From positions 1 to 38,714 of the forward strand of contig JAKDRW010000013.1 in assembly GCA_030454225.1 (NCBI GenBank): a stretch of DNA of 38,714 nucleotides, written 5' to 3'. Shown one piece after another: positions 4,298 to 32,850 of this stretch (positions are counted from its first letter, which is position 1; the number at the start of each line of letters is the position of its first letter). Position numbers and translations under genes: made by a program. The stretch is from Vreelandella subglaciescola (GTDB taxonomy: Bacteria > Pseudomonadota > Gammaproteobacteria > Pseudomonadales > Halomonadaceae). The notes under the pieces are model-generated. The model searched no databases. It was not told the origin of the DNA and saw nothing but the letters and a program-made list of their open reading frames with translations.

Positions 4298-5302
4298 TTA
4301 TCCCATTAAAAGCTGGCTTGCTACGCCGCCGCCGATAATCAACAGAGAAAACAGGATCAGCCCCAGGATAAAGGGGCGGATGCCCAGCGCCTTGAGCTTC
4401 TCAATGCGCGTTTCAAAGCCCAGCGCCGCCATGGCCATGGTCATGCCGATCTGGCCGGCCAACACCAGCGCGCCCTGCAGCGCTTCGGGCAGCGTAAGTA
4501 CGCTGTTGACGCCAACCATGGCCATAAAGCCGAAGGCGAACCAGGGAATGGTCAGCTTGGCCGCTTCGCCGGCGTCGGCGTTTGTTTGGGTCGCATTCTT
4601 GCGCAGCCACCACTGGCCGACAATCAGCAGGAAGGGCACCAGCAGCATCACCCGAACAAGCTTCACCACAATGGCGTTGGTCAGCGCATCGGCGCCCACC
4701 GCGTCGCCGGCGGCGACCACCTGAGCGACTTCGTGAACGGTAGCGCCGATGTAGACGCCGTAAAGTCCCTCGCTCATGTGCGTCAGCGGATAAAGTAGCG
4801 GGTGCACCAGCATGGCCAGCGAGCCGAACAGCACCACGGTAGCCACCGCCATGGACGCCGCCGCGGGGCGCGAGCGGATGGTGGATTCCGTCGCCAGCAC
4901 CGCCGCTGCGCCGCAAATCGCGCTGCCGGCGCTGGTCAGCAGGGTGGTTTCACGATCCATGCCCAGAACTCGCGTGCCGATAAAATAGCCCGCCGTGAGC
5001 ACGCTGGTAATCACCAGCACATCGAGCAGGATAATCTTTGGGCCGAGTACAAAAATCTGCTGCACGGTCAACGAGAAGCCAAACAGCACGATGCCGCCGC
5101 GCAACAGCCAGCGGGTAGCGAACCCCAGCCCCGGTTTGGCCGTCGTGGCAAGGCCGCGCGCCTGCGGCAGGTTGCCCAGCACCAGCCCCAACAGCAGCGA
5201 AAATACCAGCGGGCTAACGCCGCTGTCGGCGACGCCTGGCAGCAGCGAAATACCGAAGCCCGCAAGGGTGAGGGATGCGCAGAGAATAATGCCTTGCCAC
5301 AT
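4298..5302 (-). CDS. yeiH: YeiH/UPF0324 family putative sulfate exporter
   Basis: 334 residues with about ten hydrophobic segments. It matches the YeiH family by its N-terminal LTLAGFGISLLPG region, the central SAGSAICGAAAVLATES segment and the GATVHEVAQVVAAGDAVG loop. The ribosome site AAGGAG lies 7 bp before the ATG. Family members are annotated as putative sulfate exporters, but that substrate is weakly supported. The gene is divergent from a LysR regulator, the same arrangement as yeiH-yeiE in enterics, and the 200-bp gap contains a 32-bp dyad, so regulation by that neighbour is likely. A terminator follows the gene. Confidence 0.88.
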   Translation of the reverse strand: MWQGIILCASLTLAGFGISLLPGVADSGVSPLVFSLLLGLVLGNLPQARGLATTAKPGLGFATRWLLRGGIVLFGFSLTVQQIFVLGPKIILLDVLVITSVLTAGYFIGTRVLGMDRETTLLTSAGSAICGAAAVLATESTIRSRPAAASMAVATVVLFGSLAMLVHPLLYPLTHMSEGLYGVYIGATVHEVAQVVAAGDAVGADALTNAIVVKLVRVMLLVPFLLIVGQWWLRKNATQTNADAGEAAKLTIPWFAFGFMAMVGVNSVLTLPEALQGALVLAGQIGMTMAMAALGFETRIEKLKALGIRPFILGLILFSLLIIGGGVASQLLMG

Positions 5303-5350
5303 GGCGGTGCTCCTTGGGTGTGTGTCTGGCGCTATTCTATGCGGCGGGGC

Positions 5351-5382
5351 GTTATATGGTTATCATAAAATAACTATATAAC
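5351..5382. promoter_or_regulatory. 32-bp dyad, candidate operator of the LysR regulator
   Basis: Two 13-bp arms (GTTATATGGTTAT at 5351-5363 and the inverse of GTTATATAGTTAT at 5370-5382) flank a six-base centre; they differ at one position. The element is AT-rich within GC-rich DNA and lies in the divergent yeiH-lysR intergenic region, 49 bp before the yeiH start. Its size and position suit a LysR-type regulator site. Binding is inferred. Confidence 0.65.
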
Positions 5383-5446
5383 TGTTCGGTAAAACCGATA
5401 AGCCATTGCGAGCGCGACTTGCACCACCGTTACAGGGCGTATCGCC

Positions 5447-5502
5447 ATGAGCGGTTTTCCATGAACGATTTTCCATGAGCGGTTTTCCATGAACGGTTTT
5501 CC
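5447..5502 (+). repeat. Four 14-bp tandem repeats forming chained mini-ORFs
   Basis: Units at 5447, 5461, 5475 and 5489 follow the pattern ATGARCGRTTTTCC, and a fifth partial unit begins at 5503 with the start codon of the LysR gene. Each unit reads as ATG, four codons (Ser/Asn-Gly/Asp-Phe-Pro) and a TGA that overlaps the next unit's ATG as ATGA. The last TGA (5504-5506) overlaps the LysR ATG. The repeats shift frame by two bases each time, so no long ORF arises. Confidence 0.85.
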
Positions 5503-6411
5503 ATGAGCCATGCCGTCACGTTTCGCCAGCTGCAGGTGTTTGTCGCCGTCGCCCGGGAGGGCACGGTGGTTGGCGCCGCGCGCTATTTGAGCCTGTCGCA
5601 GTCGGCTGCCAGCCAGGCGCTGGGGGACCTGGAGCGTCAGCTGGGCGTGGCGCTGTTCGAGCGCCCGGGGCGCAAGCTGCGCTTAAACGATATGGGGCGC
5701 CATCTGCTGCCCCGCGCCGAGCGCCTGCTCGACGGCATGGCGGATTTTGTGGCCGCCGCCGAAGAGCCCGACGAGCGCCTGCGCGGCACGCTTAACGTCT
5801 CGGCCAGCGCGACCGTGGGCACCTATCTGCTGCCTACGCTGGCGGGGCGCTTCAGCGATTTCCACCAGGGCGTGGATCTACGCCTGCGGCTGCGCAACAC
5901 CGGCGAGGTGATCAACGACCTGCTGCGCTTTGACGCCGACCTCGGGCTGATTGAAGGGCTCTGCCACGAGCCGCGGCTGCAAAGCGAAGCCTGGTGCGAA
6001 GACCGGCTGGTGATCATCGCCGCGCCGGGTCATCCCCTGGCGCAGCGGCAGTCACAAAAGCGAGCACAGCAGCGGCTAAGCGACGCCGACCTTGCAACAG
6101 CCGAGTGGATTTTGCGCGAAACCGGCTCGGGCACGCGGGAGATCTTTGAGGCGGCGGTGCTCAACCACGTGCCACGGCTTGCCGTGCGTATGGAGCTCAG
6201 CCAGCACGAGGCGATCAAGCAGGCGGTGATGGCCGGTTTCGGGCTTGGCTGCCTGTCGCATTTGAGCGTGGTCGGCGAGCTTGAGCGCGGCGAACTGGTA
6301 GCGTTGGAGAACGGGCTCTCGCTGTCGCGCACGTTTTCGCTGGTATGGCACCCCGAGCGCTATCGCAGCCCGCTGTGGCAAGCGTTCAAGGTGTTCTTGA
6401 CCGAGCAGTGA
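5503..6411 (+). CDS. LysR-family transcriptional regulator (YeiE-like)
   Basis: 302 residues. The N-terminal winged helix-turn-helix spans about residues 5-65 (FRQLQVFVAVAREGTVVGAARYLSLSQSAASQALGDLERQLGVALFER in scattered agreement with the LysR profile), followed by a linker helix and a two-lobed periplasmic-binding-protein-like effector domain to the end. The RETGSGTREIFE stretch near residues 204-215 is typical of the CysB/YeiE/Cbl branch. No ordinary Shine-Dalgarno sequence precedes the ATG; instead the start is the last link of four 14-bp repeats carrying overlapping ATGA stop-starts. Divergent from the yeiH gene, which it probably controls. The effector is unknown. Confidence 0.92.
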   Translation: MSHAVTFRQLQVFVAVAREGTVVGAARYLSLSQSAASQALGDLERQLGVALFERPGRKLRLNDMGRHLLPRAERLLDGMADFVAAAEEPDERLRGTLNVSASATVGTYLLPTLAGRFSDFHQGVDLRLRLRNTGEVINDLLRFDADLGLIEGLCHEPRLQSEAWCEDRLVIIAAPGHPLAQRQSQKRAQQRLSDADLATAEWILRETGSGTREIFEAAVLNHVPRLAVRMELSQHEAIKQAVMAGFGLGCLSHLSVVGELERGELVALENGLSLSRTFSLVWHPERYRSPLWQAFKVFLTEQ

Positions 6412-6455
6412 GTGGCCGAGCGGTGCGCGCCGGCGTCAGGCGTCTGAGCCATGGC

Positions 6456-7070
6456 TCATGGCTCGTGGCTTAACGCGCGGTAGCCGCCCCACAGCCGGGT
6501 CGCGGTGGTGATCAGGCAGGCCAGCGAAAACAGCGCGGCAAGCCAGGCAAACTGGCCGGGAAACAGGCAGAAAAGCACCAGCGCGGCCACGGTTTCGGTG
6601 CCCTCGGTCAGCCCTTCCATATAGTAGAAGGCCTTTTGCGGGAAGCGCGGGCGCGTGATGCCGCGCCGGCTGGCGGCGATGGCAAAGGCCAGAAACGACG
6701 TCCCTGTGCCGATAAAGGCAAACAGCAAAAACGCCGCTGCCAGCGCGTTGGCGGCAGGGTCGGCCAGCGCAAAGCCGAACACCACCGCGGCGTAGAAGAC
6801 AAAATCCAGCCCGATATCCAGAAACCCGCCGGCGTCGCTGGTTTTATCAGCAAGCCTTGCCAGCGCGCCGTCCAGCCCGTCGCCCAGGCGATTGAGCATA
6901 ATCGCCATCAGTGCCCAGCCGTAGTGCTCAAAGGCCAAAAGCGGCAGCGCGGCCATGCCGATGACAAAGGCGCCAAGCGTCACCTGATCGGGCGTCAGCC
7001 GGCCGTCAAGGACTCGGGCCAGCCGCGCGAGCGGGCGGTGGGTCAGCGGCATGGTGAAGCGGTCGAGCAT
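6456..7070 (-). CDS. CDP-alcohol phosphatidyltransferase family protein
   Basis: 204 residues, integral membrane. The family signature DGxxAR(x8)GxxxDxxxD is complete: GDGLDGALARLADKTSDAGG continues into FLDIGLDF, around residues 63-91. These enzymes displace CMP from a CDP-linked donor with an alcohol and act in the inner membrane in phospholipid synthesis. Which alcohol is used cannot be told here; it is shorter and less like PgsA or PssA than those enzymes are to their own relatives. It converges on the LysR gene and is divergent from sbcD. PgpA, another phospholipid enzyme, lies beyond sbcC on the other strand, which may be coincidence. Confidence 0.87.
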   Translation of the reverse strand: MLDRFTMPLTHRPLARLARVLDGRLTPDQVTLGAFVIGMAALPLLAFEHYGWALMAIMLNRLGDGLDGALARLADKTSDAGGFLDIGLDFVFYAAVVFGFALADPAANALAAAFLLFAFIGTGTSFLAFAIAASRRGITRPRFPQKAFYYMEGLTEGTETVAALVLFCLFPGQFAWLAALFSLACLITTATRLWGGYRALSHEP

Positions 7071-27189: not shown

Positions 27190-27271
27190 TGACACGGGGT
27201 GTCCCGCCAAACGCGGGGCTGAGACAACACCCGACGAACCTGATCCGGATAATGCCGGCGAAGGGATGTCA
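27190..27271 (+). promoter_or_regulatory. TPP riboswitch (THI element), plus strand
   Basis: The conserved THI-box parts are present in order: GGGGTG near 27196, CTGAGA (27219-27224), GAACCTGATCC and AATGCCGGCGAAGGGA (27251-27266). P1 pairs TGACA (27190-27194) with TGTCA (27267-27271), P2 pairs GGGTGT with ACACCC (27226-27231), and P3 is CCCGC/GCGGG. Binding of thiamine pyrophosphate normally switches the downstream gene off. A stem CGAGCG/CGCTCG (27273-27294) follows without a clear T-run, so control of translation start is likelier than termination. Confidence 0.95.
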
Positions 27272-27339
27272 GCGAGCGTTCGTTTGAGCGCTCGGCGTGC
27301 GTCCCTCGTCTTTTGCTTTCTCATCACAAGGGCCACGCC

Positions 27340-28146
27340 ATGAGTACCTCGACAGCTTCTGCCATTTCCTCTTCTCCCGCTGCGCTGCCGCTTGACCAGC
27401 AGGTGGTGCTGGTAACCGGCGCTGGTCGCGGCCTGGGCGCCAGCCTTGCGCGCGCGTTTCTCAATACCGGCGCGCGGGTTGTCGTCAACTATCGTAACAG
27501 CGCCGCCGGCGCCGAAGCCGTAGCCGCCGAGGCGCCCGACCGCGCGCTGGCCGTACAGGCCGACGTCTGCGACGCCGCGGCCGTCAAGGCCATGCTGGCC
27601 GCCGCGCGCGAGCACTTCGGTACGCCGGTGACGACGATAGTCAACAACGCGCTGCCGGATTTTTCGTTCAACGGCAACGCCCGTCCGGACGCCGACGCGC
27701 TGACCTGGGAGCACCTTGAACAGCAGCTGAAAGGTGTGAATCAGGGTGCGCTAAACGCCATTCAGGGCGCGCTTTCCGGCATGCGCGAGCAGGGGTTCGG
27801 GCGCATCGTCAACGTCGGCACCAACCTGTTTCAAAATCCCATCGTGCCGTACCACGACTACACTGCCGGCAAGGCCGCGCTGCTCGCGCTGACGCGCACC
27901 TTCGCCCACGACCTGGGGCCGGACAACATTACCGTCAACATGATTTCCGGTGGGCTGTTGCGCACCACCGATGCCTCCGCCGCCACGCCCGACGCAGTGT
28001 TTGAGCTGATCGCCGCCAACACGCCGCTGCGCCGGGTGGTCACGCCCGACGAGTTTGCCGACGCGGCGCTGATGTTTGCCTCGCCCTGGGGGCGGGCGAT
28101 CACCGGCCAGAATCTGGTGGTCGACGGCGGACTGGTGAAAGACTGA
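27340..28146 (+). CDS. Short-chain dehydrogenase/reductase under TPP riboswitch control
   Basis: 268 residues. The ATG at 27340 follows CAAGGG by 7 bases. The Rossmann motif TGAGRGLG lies at residues 26-33, NNA follows near 105, and the active-site YTAGK gives Tyr-x3-Lys. Thirteen residues before that Tyr, where the classical enzyme has Ser (FabG Ser138), this protein has Thr, a rare change. It is FabG-like overall and would be annotated 3-oxoacyl-ACP reductase, but the thiamine riboswitch points elsewhere. I recall an SDR called OarX listed among predicted THI-regulated genes; that link is from memory. It overlaps the next gene as TGATG, so the two are translated together. Confidence 0.93.
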   Translation: MSTSTASAISSSPAALPLDQQVVLVTGAGRGLGASLARAFLNTGARVVVNYRNSAAGAEAVAAEAPDRALAVQADVCDAAAVKAMLAAAREHFGTPVTTIVNNALPDFSFNGNARPDADALTWEHLEQQLKGVNQGALNAIQGALSGMREQGFGRIVNVGTNLFQNPIVPYHDYTAGKAALLALTRTFAHDLGPDNITVNMISGGLLRTTDASAATPDAVFELIAANTPLRRVVTPDEFADAALMFASPWGRAITGQNLVVDGGLVKD

Positions 28147-29438
28147 TGGCTTCCAGCATGCACTTGAACCTGTTCATCATGGGCTGCGGGCACCACCGCG
28201 CCGCCTGGCGCCACCCGGATTCTTCCGCCGAGCGGATGGGCGATATCGGCTACTTTGAGTCGCTGGCGCGTACCGCCGAGCGCGGCAAGTTTGACGCCGT
28301 GTTTTTTGCTGACGGCCACGCCGCGGGCAATGTCGCCGGCGGGCCGCTGTGGTTTCTGGAACCCTTGACTGCGCTTTCCGCCATGGCGCGTGCCACCGAG
28401 CACATCGGCTTGATTTCGACGGTATCCAGCACTTTCTACACGCCGTTTCACGCCGCGCGAATGCTGGCCTCGCTGGATCATATTTCCCGCGGGCGGGTGG
28501 GCTGGAACCTGGTGACCTCGATGTTTGACGCCGAGGCGCGCAACCATAACTACACGGCGATGCCGCCCCACGCCGAGCGCTACGCCCGCGCCGAAGAGTT
28601 TGCCAGCACGGTGCTGGCGCTGTGGGACAGCTGGGATGATGACGCGCTGCGCCTTGACCGCGCCGGCCAGTTCGCCGACCCCGATAAAGTGCGCCCGATC
28701 CACCACCGCGGCGAGCACTTTTTGGTCGATGGCCCGCTCAACGTGCCGCGCCCGCCCCAGGGGCGGCCGGTGCTGTTTCAGGCCGGCGCCTCCGAGCCGG
28801 GCCGTGATTTGGCCGCCCGCTACGCCGAGGCGATCTACGCCGTGGCCTATGATCTGAAATCCGCTCAGGCCTACTACGGCGACATTCAGGCGCGGGTCGC
28901 CGCTGCTGGCCGCCCGCCGGTGGCGATCATGCCGGGGCTGGTGACCTACGTGGGAGCGACTGAGGAAGAAGCCAAGGCCCGTCAGCGCGAACTCGACGAG
29001 CTTCTGCCCACGGCGGATTCGTTGCATCAATTAAGCCAGTTTATCGGTCAGGATTGCAGCGGCTGGGCGCTGGATGCGCCGGTGCCCGATCTGCCGCCGC
29101 TTGAGGACTTCACCGGGCCCAAGGGGCGCTACGCGACCATTCTGCGCATCATCGAATGCGAAAAGCCGACCCTGCGCCAGCTGCTCGGGCGGCTGGCAGC
29201 GGGCGGTGGCCACTGCACCATGGTCGGCACGCCGGAAAGCATTGCCGATGAAATGCAGCGCTGGGTAGAGCAGGGTGGCGCCGACGGCTTCAACCTGATG
29301 CCCCCTGCGCTGCCCTCAAGCATCGAGGATTTTGTCGAGCAGGTGGTGCCGGTGCTGCAGCGGCGCGGCCTGTTCCGCCGGGAATATACTGCTAGCACCC
29401 TGCGTGGGCATTTGGGACTCGAACGGCCGAGGGCATAA
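28146..29438 (+). CDS. NtaA/SnaA/DszA-type flavin-dependent (LLM class) monooxygenase under TPP control
   Basis: 430 residues, the normal length of this branch of the luciferase-like (LLM) superfamily. The branch's marks include an early FFADGHA stretch, TEHIGLISTVSSTFYTPFHAARMLASLDHIS..GRVGWNLVTS (cited with gaps), ERYARAEEF, QAGASEPG and a late GTPESIADEM. These enzymes take FMNH2 from a separate reductase and insert oxygen next to C, N or S; relatives cleave nitrilotriacetate, dibenzothiophene sulfone and pyrimidine rings. No flavin reductase gene is in the window. The start overlaps the SDR stop (TGATG), so both act in one pathway. Oxidation of a thiamine fragment is inferred from the riboswitch and neighbouring transporter. 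Confidence 0.94.
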   Translation: MASSMHLNLFIMGCGHHRAAWRHPDSSAERMGDIGYFESLARTAERGKFDAVFFADGHAAGNVAGGPLWFLEPLTALSAMARATEHIGLISTVSSTFYTPFHAARMLASLDHISRGRVGWNLVTSMFDAEARNHNYTAMPPHAERYARAEEFASTVLALWDSWDDDALRLDRAGQFADPDKVRPIHHRGEHFLVDGPLNVPRPPQGRPVLFQAGASEPGRDLAARYAEAIYAVAYDLKSAQAYYGDIQARVAAAGRPPVAIMPGLVTYVGATEEEAKARQRELDELLPTADSLHQLSQFIGQDCSGWALDAPVPDLPPLEDFTGPKGRYATILRIIECEKPTLRQLLGRLAAGGGHCTMVGTPESIADEMQRWVEQGGADGFNLMPPALPSSIEDFVEQVVPVLQRRGLFRREYTASTLRGHLGLERPRA

Positions 29439-29578: not shown

Positions 29579-31030
29579 TTACGATTGCCGGCCGAAGCGG
29601 CGTACCAGCGTGCCCAGGCTTGAAAAGTCGTAGTGTTTCCGGGCGGGCATTACGCGCATGAGTATCAGCGAGACGGCCACCGGCACCAGCGCGGCGAGCA
29701 GAAAGCTTTCCAAAAGCGTCTCGGTGCCGGCGCTGGGCGCGGGGAACATGGCAAGCCCCGCGACCAGCCCGCAGGCGGTGCTGATGACCGCGTTGCGTCC
29801 GTCGTAGCGGCGGTTAAATAGCCCGAAAAACACCGGAAACGCCGCCGCCGAGCACAAGAGATCAGCCAGCAGAAACAGGTAGAGCACGCTGAACCCCTGA
29901 GAGGCCACCCAGGTAATCGGCACCGCTGCGGCAACGATCAACCAGCGGGCCAGGCGCATCAGCGTCGATTCGCTGGCGCCGGGCAGCAGGCGGTGCATAT
30001 CCACCGCAATAATGCTTGAGGTGGCGTTGATGGTGGAGTCGGCGCTGCTCATCACCAATGCCAGCCCCAGCGGAATCAGCGCCAGCGCAAACCACAGCGG
30101 CACCTTGGCCAGCAGCACGCTGAACAGCGCCACCGAGCCGTCGCCCTCCAGATCGAGCCCCACAAACGCCAGGCCGAAAAGTCCCATCAGGATAATCACC
30201 GGCAGGTTAAAAAGCCCGCTAATCCAGAAGCTTTTGCGCAGCACGCGAACGTTTTTGGCCGCGTAGATGCGCTGCCAAGTGCCCTGATAGAAAAGCCCGG
30301 TCAGCACCACGGCGATAAAGAACGTCAGCCCTCCGCGTATGCCGCTGGCGGCGGTAATATCCAACAGCTCGGGGGCGTTTTGCGCGAGTCCTTCAAGCGT
30401 CGGCGTGGCGCCGCCGGCGGCCTGCCAGCCGAAGATCAGCAGCAATGCCAGCAGCGGCAGAATCACGACCATCTGCACCTTGTCGGTAAAGATCGAGGCG
30501 CGCAGGCCGCCGTAAAAGGTGTAAATCACGGTGGCGAACATCACTACGCTGGCGGTCAGCCACAGCGGAATCGGCGCCAGCAGCGTGACCATAAAGGCCA
30601 CTGCGGTAAGCCCCGCCGTCAGCGCAATAAACAGGTAGAACAGCATGATCGACAGCGTAAAGGCATACATGATGCGCCCGTAGCGGTGGAACACGAACTC
30701 GGTCAGCCCGTGGCCTTCGGGGATCAATTCGCGCATGCGCCGCCCCAGCGGAATCATGATCAACGGCGGCGCCAGGGAGCCCAGCGCATAGCCCAGAATA
30801 GCGCCAACGCCGCCCCAGGTCGCGGCCTGGGCGGGGCCGAACAGCACCCAGGTACCAAGCGATGTGGCCAGCAAGGTAAGCACGGTAGCGCGGGTGTTCT
30901 GTGAGTTGCGCGCGGAGATGTAGTCGTCTAAATCATCGCGGTGGCGGCGGGCATAGAGCAGGCCGGGCACGGCAAACACGACGGCGCACAGCACAAGCCA
31001 AAGTGCCGTCCAGGTGGGGTCAAGCTGCAT
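29579..31030 (-). CDS. Sodium:solute symporter (SSS family) under TPP riboswitch control
   Basis: 483 residues with 12-13 membrane spans, the usual SSS length. The [12 protein letters not shown] segment in the eighth core helix region corresponds to the second sodium site of PutP and vSGLT, and [16 protein letters not shown] is the family signature. The gene is preceded by a TPP riboswitch, so the cargo is probably thiamine or a precursor such as hydroxymethylpyrimidine. A pantothenate-symporter-like protein (ThiV) has been predicted to play this part in other bacteria. The start at 31030 has AAGGAAAGAGGA upstream, which can be hidden by an upstream complementary stretch. Confidence 0.92.
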
Positions 31031-31040
31031 GGTGGTACGT

Positions 31041-31117
31041 CCTCTTTCCTTGTGACAGCCAGGAGATCGCGGAGGCAGTTCAGGCGAGTGTCGCGATGAG
31101 GTGCGACAAGGAAGAGG
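31041..31117 (-). promoter_or_regulatory. Ribosome-site-masking inverted repeat (riboswitch expression platform)
   Basis: In the minus-strand transcript, CCUCUUCCUUGU (31117-31106) can pair with ACAAGGAAAGAGG (31053-31041), a 12-bp helix with one bulged A that covers the Shine-Dalgarno sequence of the symporter gene. A second stem, TGTCGC/GCGACA (31089-31108), overlaps the masking strand by three bases and so competes with it. Confidence 0.65.
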
Positions 31118-31137
31118 AGCGTCTGGCGTATGTATTC

Positions 31138-31230
31138 CTTCCCTTCGCCGGAATGACCCGGATCAGGTTCGAAGGGTTACCGTCGCAAAAGCGGCGGATT
31201 CTCAGCCCGTTAAGGCACCCCCAGGAGAAG
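31138..31230 (-). promoter_or_regulatory. TPP riboswitch (THI element), minus strand
   Basis: Read on the minus strand: GGGGGTGCC, then GGGCTGAGAATCC, a variable P3 hairpin (CCGCCGC..GCGACGG), ACCCTTCGAACCTGATCCGG and TCATTCCGGCGAAGGGA. P1 pairs CTTCTC (31230-31225) with GGGAAG (31143-31138). This is a textbook thiamine pyrophosphate aptamer. It lies 108 bp ahead of the symporter start. Confidence 0.96.
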
Positions 31231-31234
31231 CTCA

Positions 31235-31263
31235 AGCCTAGGCAGGCGGGGCGGTCATGTCAA
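31235..31263 (-). promoter_or_regulatory. Candidate promoter of the TPP-controlled symporter
   Basis: A perfect TTGACA (minus strand, 31263-31258), 17-bp spacer and TAGGCT (31240-31235). Transcription would start near 31228, just at the first aptamer helix. The -35 match and geometry are good; the -10 is weak. Confidence 0.6.
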
Positions 31264-31284
31264 ACTAACGTCGACTATCGAAGA

Positions 31285-31321
31285 CATAGCGCACTTCTTA
31301 GCCTGAAACGGCTACGCTATG
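31285..31321. promoter_or_regulatory. Nested dyad between the symporter and catalase promoters
   Basis: CATAGCG (31285-31291) pairs with CGCTATG (31315-31321), and inside it TAGCC (31299-31303) with GGCTA (31310-31314). Two copies of CGTTATAC follow at about 31345 and 31361, shortly before the catalase ribosome site. It could be a regulator site for catalase, but no OxyR consensus is clear. Confidence 0.4.
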
Positions 31322-31389
31322 ACTCTGTATTTGTACGGCTCAGTCGTTATACAGCCCAGCCGTTATACCGCCAATCAGGAGGCGCTACC

Positions 31390-32850
31390 GTGTCCGACGA
31401 TAAACGCAAGCCCACTACCACCGATGCCGGCATTCCCGTGGCCAGCGACGAGCACTCGCTGACGGTCGGCCCCAACGGGCCCATTGCGCTGCACGATCAC
31501 TACCTGATCGAGCAGATGGCGACCTTCAACCGCGAGCGTATCCCCGAGCGTCAGCCCCACGCCAAGGGCAGCGGCGCCTTTGGCCACTTCGAGGTGACCG
31601 AGGATGTCAGCCGCTATACCAAGGCGGCGGTGTTTCAGCCGGGGATGCAAACCGAGGTGGTGATGCGCTTTTCGACGGTTGCCGGCGAGCGTGGCAGCCC
31701 CGACACCTGGCGCGACCCGCGCGGCTTCTCGATCAAGTTCTACACCAGTGAAGGCAACTACGACATGGTGGGGAACAACACGCCGGTGTTCTTCATCCGC
31801 GACCCGATGAAGTTCCAGCACTTTATCCGCTCGCAAAAGCGCCGCGCCGACAACAACCTGCGCGATAACGACATGCAGTGGGATTTCTGGTCGCTGTCGC
31901 CGGAGTCGGCCCACCAGGTCACCTGGCTGATGGGCGATCGCGGGATTCCCAAAACCTGGCGCCACATGAACGGCTATTCCAGCCACACTTACATGTGGGT
32001 GAACGCCGACGGCGAGAAGTTCTGGGTGAAATACCACTTCAAGACCGATCAGGGCGTCGAGTGCCTGACCCAGGACGAGGCCGACCGGCTGGCCGGCGAA
32101 GACGGCGACTACCACATGCGCGACCTTTACACCTCGATCGCGCGCGGCGACTGCCCGAGCTGGACGCTGCACATGCAGGTCATGCCGTTTGCCGAGGCCG
32201 AGACCTACCGCTTCAACCCGTTCGACCTGACCAAGATCTGGCCCCACGACGACTATCCGCTGATCAAGGTTGGCAAGCTGACCCTGGATACCAACCCCAC
32301 GGATAACCACGCCCAGATCGAGCAGGCGGCGTTCGAGCCCAATAACCTGGTGCCCGGCATCGGCATCAGCCCGGACAAGATGCTGCTGGGACGCGTGTTC
32401 GCCTACGCCGATGCGCACCGCCACCGGCTGGGGGTGAACTACAAGCAGATTCCGGTCAACGCGCCCAAATCGCCGGTCAACAGCTACAGCAAGGACGGCG
32501 CGATGCGCATGCACCCCGTGTCCGATCCGGTGTACGCGCCCAACTCCAAGGGCGGCCCCCAGGCCGACGGCGAGCGCTACCCGACGGATTCCACGTGGGA
32601 ATCCAGCGGCGATATGGTACGCGCCGCCTATACGCTGCGCCGCGATGACGACGACTTTGGCCAGGCCAACGCGTTGGTCAACGAGGTGATGAACGCCGAC
32701 GAGCGCGGCCGGCTGGTGAATAACGTGGTCGGCCACTTGTCCGGCGGTGTCACCGAACCGGTGCTGGAGCGCGCTTTTGAGTACTGGCGCAACGTCGACG
32801 CCGATATCGGCGAGCGTATTGCCCAGGGCGTGCGAGCGAAAAACGCCTAG
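31390..32850 (+). CDS. Monofunctional haem catalase, small-subunit type
   Basis: 486 residues, starting at a GTG behind CAGGAGG; the open frame continues far upstream but without similarity. Catalase motifs are complete: the active-site His in [10 protein letters not shown] (about residue 58), the distal Asn in [11 protein letters not shown] (about 131), and the haem-ligand Tyr in [14 protein letters not shown] (about 341). The residues just before the active His read QP in place of the common VV. It breaks hydrogen peroxide to water and oxygen in the cytoplasm, with no signal peptide. It stands alone with its own terminator. Confidence 0.97.

Follow-up and report, generated by a model that had tools for sequence, protein, structure and literature searches.

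What do a short-chain dehydrogenase/reductase (SDR) and a luciferase-like monooxygenase (LLM) do when they stand together behind a thiamine pyrophosphate (TPP) riboswitch? This question is raised by a locus of Vreelandella subglaciescola (Gammaproteobacteria, Halomonadaceae; assembly GCA_030454225.1), located in the 38,714-nucleotide stretch of contig JAKDRW010000013.1 (positions 1 to 38,714, forward strand) that was analysed here as a whole and is called the window below. A TPP riboswitch aptamer (RF00059; 27185..27283, plus strand) forms the leader of an operon encoding an SDR oxidoreductase of 268 amino acids (27340..28146, plus strand, from ATG 27340 to TGA 28146) and a flavin mononucleotide (FMN)-dependent monooxygenase of the LLM class of 430 amino acids (28146..29438, plus strand, from ATG 28146 to TAA 29438). 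Convergent with this pair is the gene of a 483-residue transporter of the sodium:solute symporter (SSS) family (29579..31030, minus strand), whose leader is a second TPP riboswitch aptamer (31123..31232, minus strand). Judging from the riboswitches, the gene identities and their linkage, the co-occurrence of the symporter, an association with thiC loss and the presence of thiG, thiE and thiD-family genes, all of them read from sequence, the symporter, the LLM and the SDR probably constitute a thiamine-starvation module, which would supply the thiamine pyrimidine 4-amino-5-hydroxymethyl-2-methylpyrimidine (HMP) without ThiC, by way of an imported vitamer.

The first aptamer matched the full Rfam model (positions 1-105; 69.4 bits by cmscan, E 8.4e-12, gathering cutoff 54.3), and the SDR stop codon shares one base with the LLM start codon (TGATG, 28144-28148). 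Both the complete aptamer and the overlap had been described in an earlier note made from the letters of this DNA, and both were confirmed. The second riboswitch (66.1 bits by cmscan against the cutoff of 54.3, model positions 1-105) and the SSS symporter were absent from that note. A third TPP riboswitch in the same genome leads thiC.

The SDR belongs to the NF006393 (PRK08642) group of NCBIfam, with 414.6 bits against a cutoff of 292; the name of this group, "3-oxoacyl-ACP reductase", is an annotation only, and the score against the FabG equivalog TIGR01830 was 116.8 bits, below its cutoff of 297.75. Members of the SDR superfamily are recognized by a Gly-rich motif and by Ser-Tyr-Lys catalytic residues. 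The Gly-rich positions Gly27, Gly31 and Gly33, as well as Tyr174 and Lys178, were kept in all 70 aligned SDRs, and the position of the usual catalytic Ser was occupied by Thr161 in 70/70. The LLM scored 545.6 bits against the NCBIfam NtaA/DmoA model TIGR03860 (cutoff 279.7, residues 7-422), and its relatives in the PDB include YtnJ/MoxC, nitrilotriacetate (NTA) monooxygenase and DszA, so that its earlier description as an NtaA/DszA-type enzyme stands. Such relatives are enough to assign the fold, though a structural model would not reveal the substrate. RutA, an LLM enzyme, acts on a pyrimidine; the window LLM lies below the cutoff of the RutA equivalog TIGR03612 (55.5 bits vs 498.3).

Is this arrangement kept in related bacteria? 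The genome of the window is a metagenome-assembled genome (MAG) of 1.88 Mb that is 72% complete; absences there mean little, and relatives were therefore tested instead. Among 200 other genomes of the family Halomonadaceae, LLM matches with E-values up to 1e-80 fell into two groups, namely 19 orthologues (the carriers) at 70-89% identity and 14 matches, from nine genomes, at 46% or less. All 19 orthologues have the SDR gene immediately before the LLM gene, and in 18 of them a TPP riboswitch immediately precedes the pair, the exception being genome G017. A symporter at 66% identity or more was present in 18/19 carriers vs 0/181 non-carriers, although G008 among the latter does have a relative at 39%. 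No TPP riboswitch was found within the 1.5-kb flanks of ten loci from among the 14 distant matches. Characterized members of the NtaA/DmoA branch serve in chelator, sulfur or 2-succinocysteine breakdown. The LLMs of the cassette are members of the same NtaA/DmoA/YtnJ/DszA branch (TIGR03860) by hidden Markov model and by PDB relatives, but they form a separate, TPP-controlled orthologue set, at least 70% alike vs at most 46% to the other LLMs of the family.

More widely, 80 named loci were studied, which are the best 80 of 343 LLM relatives and therefore lean to high identity. They come from two phyla and 22 named genera (12 loci were given no genus), including Halomonas, Marinobacter, Oceanimonas, Oceanisphaera, Achromobacter and other Alcaligenaceae, Nocardiopsis, Glaciibacter, Cryobacterium and Pseudarthrobacter. 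With a riboswitch model (R1), for which 12 of the 80 loci supplied 14 of the 22 building sequences, a same-strand TPP riboswitch was found just upstream in 67/80; the remaining 13 are all the Achromobacter loci, each with a divergent riboswitch only and, in 12/13, with the symporter. Rfam's own model, applied to ten loci outside the building set of R1, gave a same-strand riboswitch above cutoff in nine (the miss being L107). The SDR was adjacent to the LLM in 73/80 loci, and the symporter was present in 61/80. The 19 loci without a symporter comprise 12 from Actinomycetota and seven from Proteobacteria, four of the latter ending at a contig edge on that side; in most Proteobacteria the TPP-controlled symporter is the third member of the cassette. 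In a quick tree of 92 LLMs, three class changes were needed and the outer branches were long; we accordingly claim no particular gene transfers.

The pair is thus far from rare behind TPP riboswitches in other genomes. Its position in 18/19 family orthologues and 67/80 named loci is not due to chance, which bears out the thiamine-regulated SDR-LLM unit proposed in the earlier note. Genes of the LLM and SDR families abound and frequently serve catabolism, and in G017 the pair is present with no riboswitch, as might be expected if a general catabolic LLM-SDR pair had come to lie behind the riboswitch by accident. This explanation, already disfavoured, is extremely improbable in view of the joint recurrence of riboswitch and pair across two phyla and three classes and of the association with thiC loss, significant in two groups, that is described next.

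Which half of thiamine, then, does the cassette serve? In the family, with the MAG of the window excluded, thiC was absent from 8/19 carriers vs 14/181 non-carriers (p=2e-4, Fisher test, relatedness ignored). The Marinobacter group, 124 genomes listed as the genus of one Marinobacter carrier, contains 13 carriers at 74-75% identity and two further genomes with 41-42% matches; here thiC was absent from 9/13 carriers vs 3/111 others (p=1e-8 by the same test, relatedness again ignored), two of the three thiC-less non-carriers having assemblies of small size, 2.1 and 2.2 Mb. Where a thiC match was partial and under the cutoff, as in two family and three Marinobacter-group non-carriers, the gene was scored as present. 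Both thiC and thiG were scored in 29 of the 80 named-locus genomes, two of which (G214 and G228) are also counted in the Marinobacter group, and thiC was absent from 10 of the 29, these two included. The thiC-less carriers span Halomonadaceae, Marinobacter, Marinomonas, Alcaligenaceae, Corticibacter, Nocardiopsis, Microbacteriaceae and Micrococcaceae; with such a spread, more than one loss of thiC is likely among carriers.

On the other side of the pathway, thiG was found in 48/48 carriers examined. Since thiC is the gene missing in excess and thiG is present in all the carriers examined, it is the pyrimidine half, not the thiazole half, that is lacking in some carriers. The earlier note had asked whether the pair accompanies loss of thiC or thiG and had named a damaged thiazole or pyrimidine as possible substrates; the counts uphold the link with thiC loss and favour the pyrimidine over the thiazole. 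The genes needed to use HMP are also in place: thiE was found in 25/25 thiC-less carriers and in the 15/15 thiC-less non-carriers scored (two thiC-less family non-carriers were left out of the thiE and tenA scoring), and a thiD-family match was found in 59/59 carriers, 47 of them above cutoff. In Vreelandella jeotgali Hwa (L035), for example, neither thiC nor tenA was detected, while thiE, thiG and a thiD-family gene are all present. The LLM relatives DszA, DmoA and YtnJ act at C-S bonds, which would suit salvage or repair of the thiazole moiety by the pair, acting for instance on the carboxylated thiazole 5-(2-hydroxyethyl)-4-methyl-1,3-thiazole-2-carboxylate (cHET) or an oxidized thiazole. 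With thiG in all 48 carriers and thiC the gene in deficit, such a role is very improbable, and thiazole salvage was rejected as the principal explanation.

By what route could HMP be obtained without ThiC? In the ThiY/YlmB/TenA pathway, N-formyl-4-amino-5-aminomethyl-2-methylpyrimidine (FAMP) and 4-amino-5-aminomethyl-2-methylpyrimidine (AmMP) are salvaged to HMP, feeding ThiD and ThiE, and both TenA and YlmB are hydrolases. The cassette would resemble this pathway in its thiamine-linked uptake and in the conversion of pyrimidine breakdown products to HMP (FAMP, AmMP and TenA are covered in PMC10470507), but it contains a flavin monooxygenase and an SDR, not hydrolases, and is found both with and without tenA. 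According to that paper, FAMP and AmMP are thiamine breakdown products that have been detected in seawater, and two TenA-bearing marine bacteria grew on AmMP (PMC10470507).

In the mechanism that we propose, low TPP would lead both riboswitches to permit expression, and the sodium symporter would import a pyrimidine vitamer (AmMP, FAMP or another N-linked pyrimidine); in Cryobacterium, and probably in Glaciibacter, a TPP-controlled YkoEDC-like transporter would take the place of the symporter. The LLM, using FMNH2, would oxidize the vitamer, most likely at the nitrogen-bearing exocyclic CH2, to yield 4-amino-5-formyl-2-methylpyrimidine. In this branch of LLM enzymes, NtaA, which acts on NTA, and the ethylenediaminetetraacetate (EDTA) monooxygenases attack a carbon adjacent to nitrogen, oxidizing it with release of an aldehyde. 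The SDR would then reduce 4-amino-5-formyl-2-methylpyrimidine to HMP, a step for which an SDR is a natural candidate; the HMP would be phosphorylated by ThiD, and ThiE would couple the product to the thiazole still made with ThiG. We infer the role in pyrimidine supply, the repression by TPP, the imported compound and both reactions with their order.

A different use of the same parts would be defence: the symporter might import HMP itself, and the pair might oxidatively remove toxic pyrimidine analogues such as bacimethrin, for example by O-demethylation. An LLM enzyme could in principle dealkylate. Moreover, an 89-bit TPP riboswitch in a related genome (L119, G200:C9:73000-83000; 4323-6860, minus strand) leads NUDIX, thymidylate-synthase-like and methyltransferase genes, a TPP-controlled set which we take to resemble a bacimethrin-type antivitamin cluster. 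In SAR11, HMP is likely to be imported by ThiV, an SSS symporter under TPP control (PMC11452348), so thiC-less bacteria that import HMP might admit analogues as well. The window symporter is alike in kind, being an SSS protein (PF00474, 79.1 bits vs a cutoff of 22.8) behind a TPP riboswitch, but it is tied to an oxidative enzyme pair, and the comparison is one of family and riboswitch only. Against a defensive role, this symporter is missing from the flanks of the pair in the 12 actinobacterial loci, the pair lies beside thiamine-synthesis genes in two of these loci and in two Marinobacter genomes, and repression by TPP would be an odd design for a defence gene. Removal of analogues is therefore unlikely to be the function of the pair.

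The thiamine genes found beside the cassette are the following. In two thiC-less Marinobacter genomes, thiG comes directly after the LLM gene, the order being riboswitch, SDR, LLM and thiG in L068 (G214) and riboswitch, an open frame of SDR size, LLM and thiG in L133 (G302). In Glaciibacter superstes (L054, L135) and a Cryobacterium (L069, L136), neither of which gave a thiC match, the pair clusters with thiE, a DAO-type (thiO-like) oxidase gene, thiG and thiD (thiF was checked in Glaciibacter only), and a two-domain ATP-binding cassette (ABC) ATPase is encoded behind a second TPP riboswitch. Transporter parts resembling YkoE (PF09819) and CbiQ (PF02361) were found in the Cryobacterium, the one genome checked for them. 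YkoEDC is a thiamine-precursor transporter.

The presence of the pair in thiamine gene clusters of two genomes without a thiC match could also mean that the LLM and the SDR make HMP from an ordinary cell metabolite, the transporter bringing some other precursor. The lack of an above-cutoff tenA in 12/25 thiC-less carriers (11 had no match, and that of G215 was below cutoff) is in line with this idea. The tight linkage to the symporter in the family (18/19 vs 0/181), however, fits salvage better, and it is hard to see how two oxidoreductases by themselves would make the 2-methylpyrimidine ring; synthesis of this kind is quite improbable. It is also rather unlikely, on the whole, that the LLM and the SDR stand in for ThiC in the broader sense of an O2-dependent HMP route from a metabolite of the cell or of its neighbours. 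Such a route, if real, would have spread through Proteobacteria and Actinomycetota and allowed repeated loss of the radical-SAM enzyme ThiC.

Several observations weigh against supply of HMP from an imported vitamer. The gene tenA, whose product already handles AmMP, is present in 18/19 family carriers; a tenA match was also found in 8/13 Marinobacter-group carriers, and these counts do not support simple replacement of TenA by the cassette. The gene thiC is kept in 11/19 family carriers and in the MAG of the window, so that the cassette often comes on top of ThiC instead of taking its place, and the 14/181 family non-carriers without thiC manage without it. Other thiamine-pathway genes adjoin the cassette in only four loci, the neighbours being annotated in part of the loci. 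Six of the 80 named loci have no SDR in their flanks, and a seventh (L075) has SDR sequence only beyond the transporter, on its far side. The LLM thus lacks an adjacent SDR in L075, L082, L100, L102, L105 and L113 (all Achromobacter) and in L046 (Nocardiopsis), which suggests that the SDR step can be dispensed with or is provided for from another place. The 12 actinobacterial loci, as mentioned, lack such a symporter in their flanks. In G017 (L118, G017:C1:20000-36000; 70% identity) the pair has neither riboswitch nor symporter, and no degraded riboswitch was found there with model R1 at default filters and E up to 10; this pair may have changed function. Two-component monooxygenases usually have a partner flavin reductase encoded nearby. 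No flavin reductase was seen among the annotated neighbours, many neighbours being unannotated and no search having been aimed at reductase families. Finally, the riboswitch leader folded just modestly better than its shuffles (z -1.73).

Do thiC-less relatives without the cassette have another way to the pyrimidine? In the family, a second TenA-like match tracks thiC loss, being present in 10/20 thiC-less genomes vs 0/27 thiC-bearing ones (p=4e-5). Among thiC-less genomes it was found in 8/12 non-carriers vs 2/8 carriers, a difference that is not significant (p=0.17). Five of the ten second TenA-like proteins (G102, G052, G153, G145 and G013; L124-L128) were aligned with two first copies, and all five were without the Cys of the first copies. 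These counts suggest, and no more, that thiC-less cells use either of two pyrimidine routes.

How much of this was known before? TPP-controlled salvage of the pyrimidine is already known, and what is new, to our knowledge, is the presence of these enzyme classes in that role. The THI-element survey of Rodionov et al. (2002) reportedly lists a THI-regulated oxidoreductase, 'oarX', together with thiV; part of the finding, the regulation of the SDR at least, may for this reason be prior art. The name 'oarX' was not found together with thiamin in the literature searched, and the papers listed for 'oarX' alone concern other subjects by their titles. Targeted searches found no paper joining a TPP riboswitch or thiamine with this class of monooxygenase or with a monooxygenase-SDR pair, and the terms thiV, monooxygenase and COG2141 are not present in the available part of the main text of a 2013 regulon survey (PMC3766115).

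A bacterium that lacks thiC is commonly classed as a pyrimidine auxotroph dependent on free HMP. If the cassette does convert another vitamer to HMP, a set of marine, halophilic and soil bacteria uses a pool that is not counted in genome-based models of the vitamin B1 cycle. The cassette further offers a way into the function, through substrates that can be tested, of a widespread LLM-SDR pair that family models describe as generic oxidoreductases only.

Some minor observations concern the surroundings of the cassette. Ten family loci (L011-L014, L016-L018 and L020-L022) have tRNA genes no more than a few hundred bases ahead of the riboswitch on its upstream side, and this tRNA-adjacent site is a possible insertion point for the cassette. 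In one Marinobacter MAG, a gene of the phage-integrase type follows the cassette at a distance of about 0.8 kb (L104:4125-5387). An 88-bit TPP riboswitch was recorded in genome G188. In the window itself, an open frame with a catalase domain (30901-32850, plus strand; PF00199 from residue 173) starts inside the 5' end of the symporter gene, on the opposite strand, and its real start probably lies further in.

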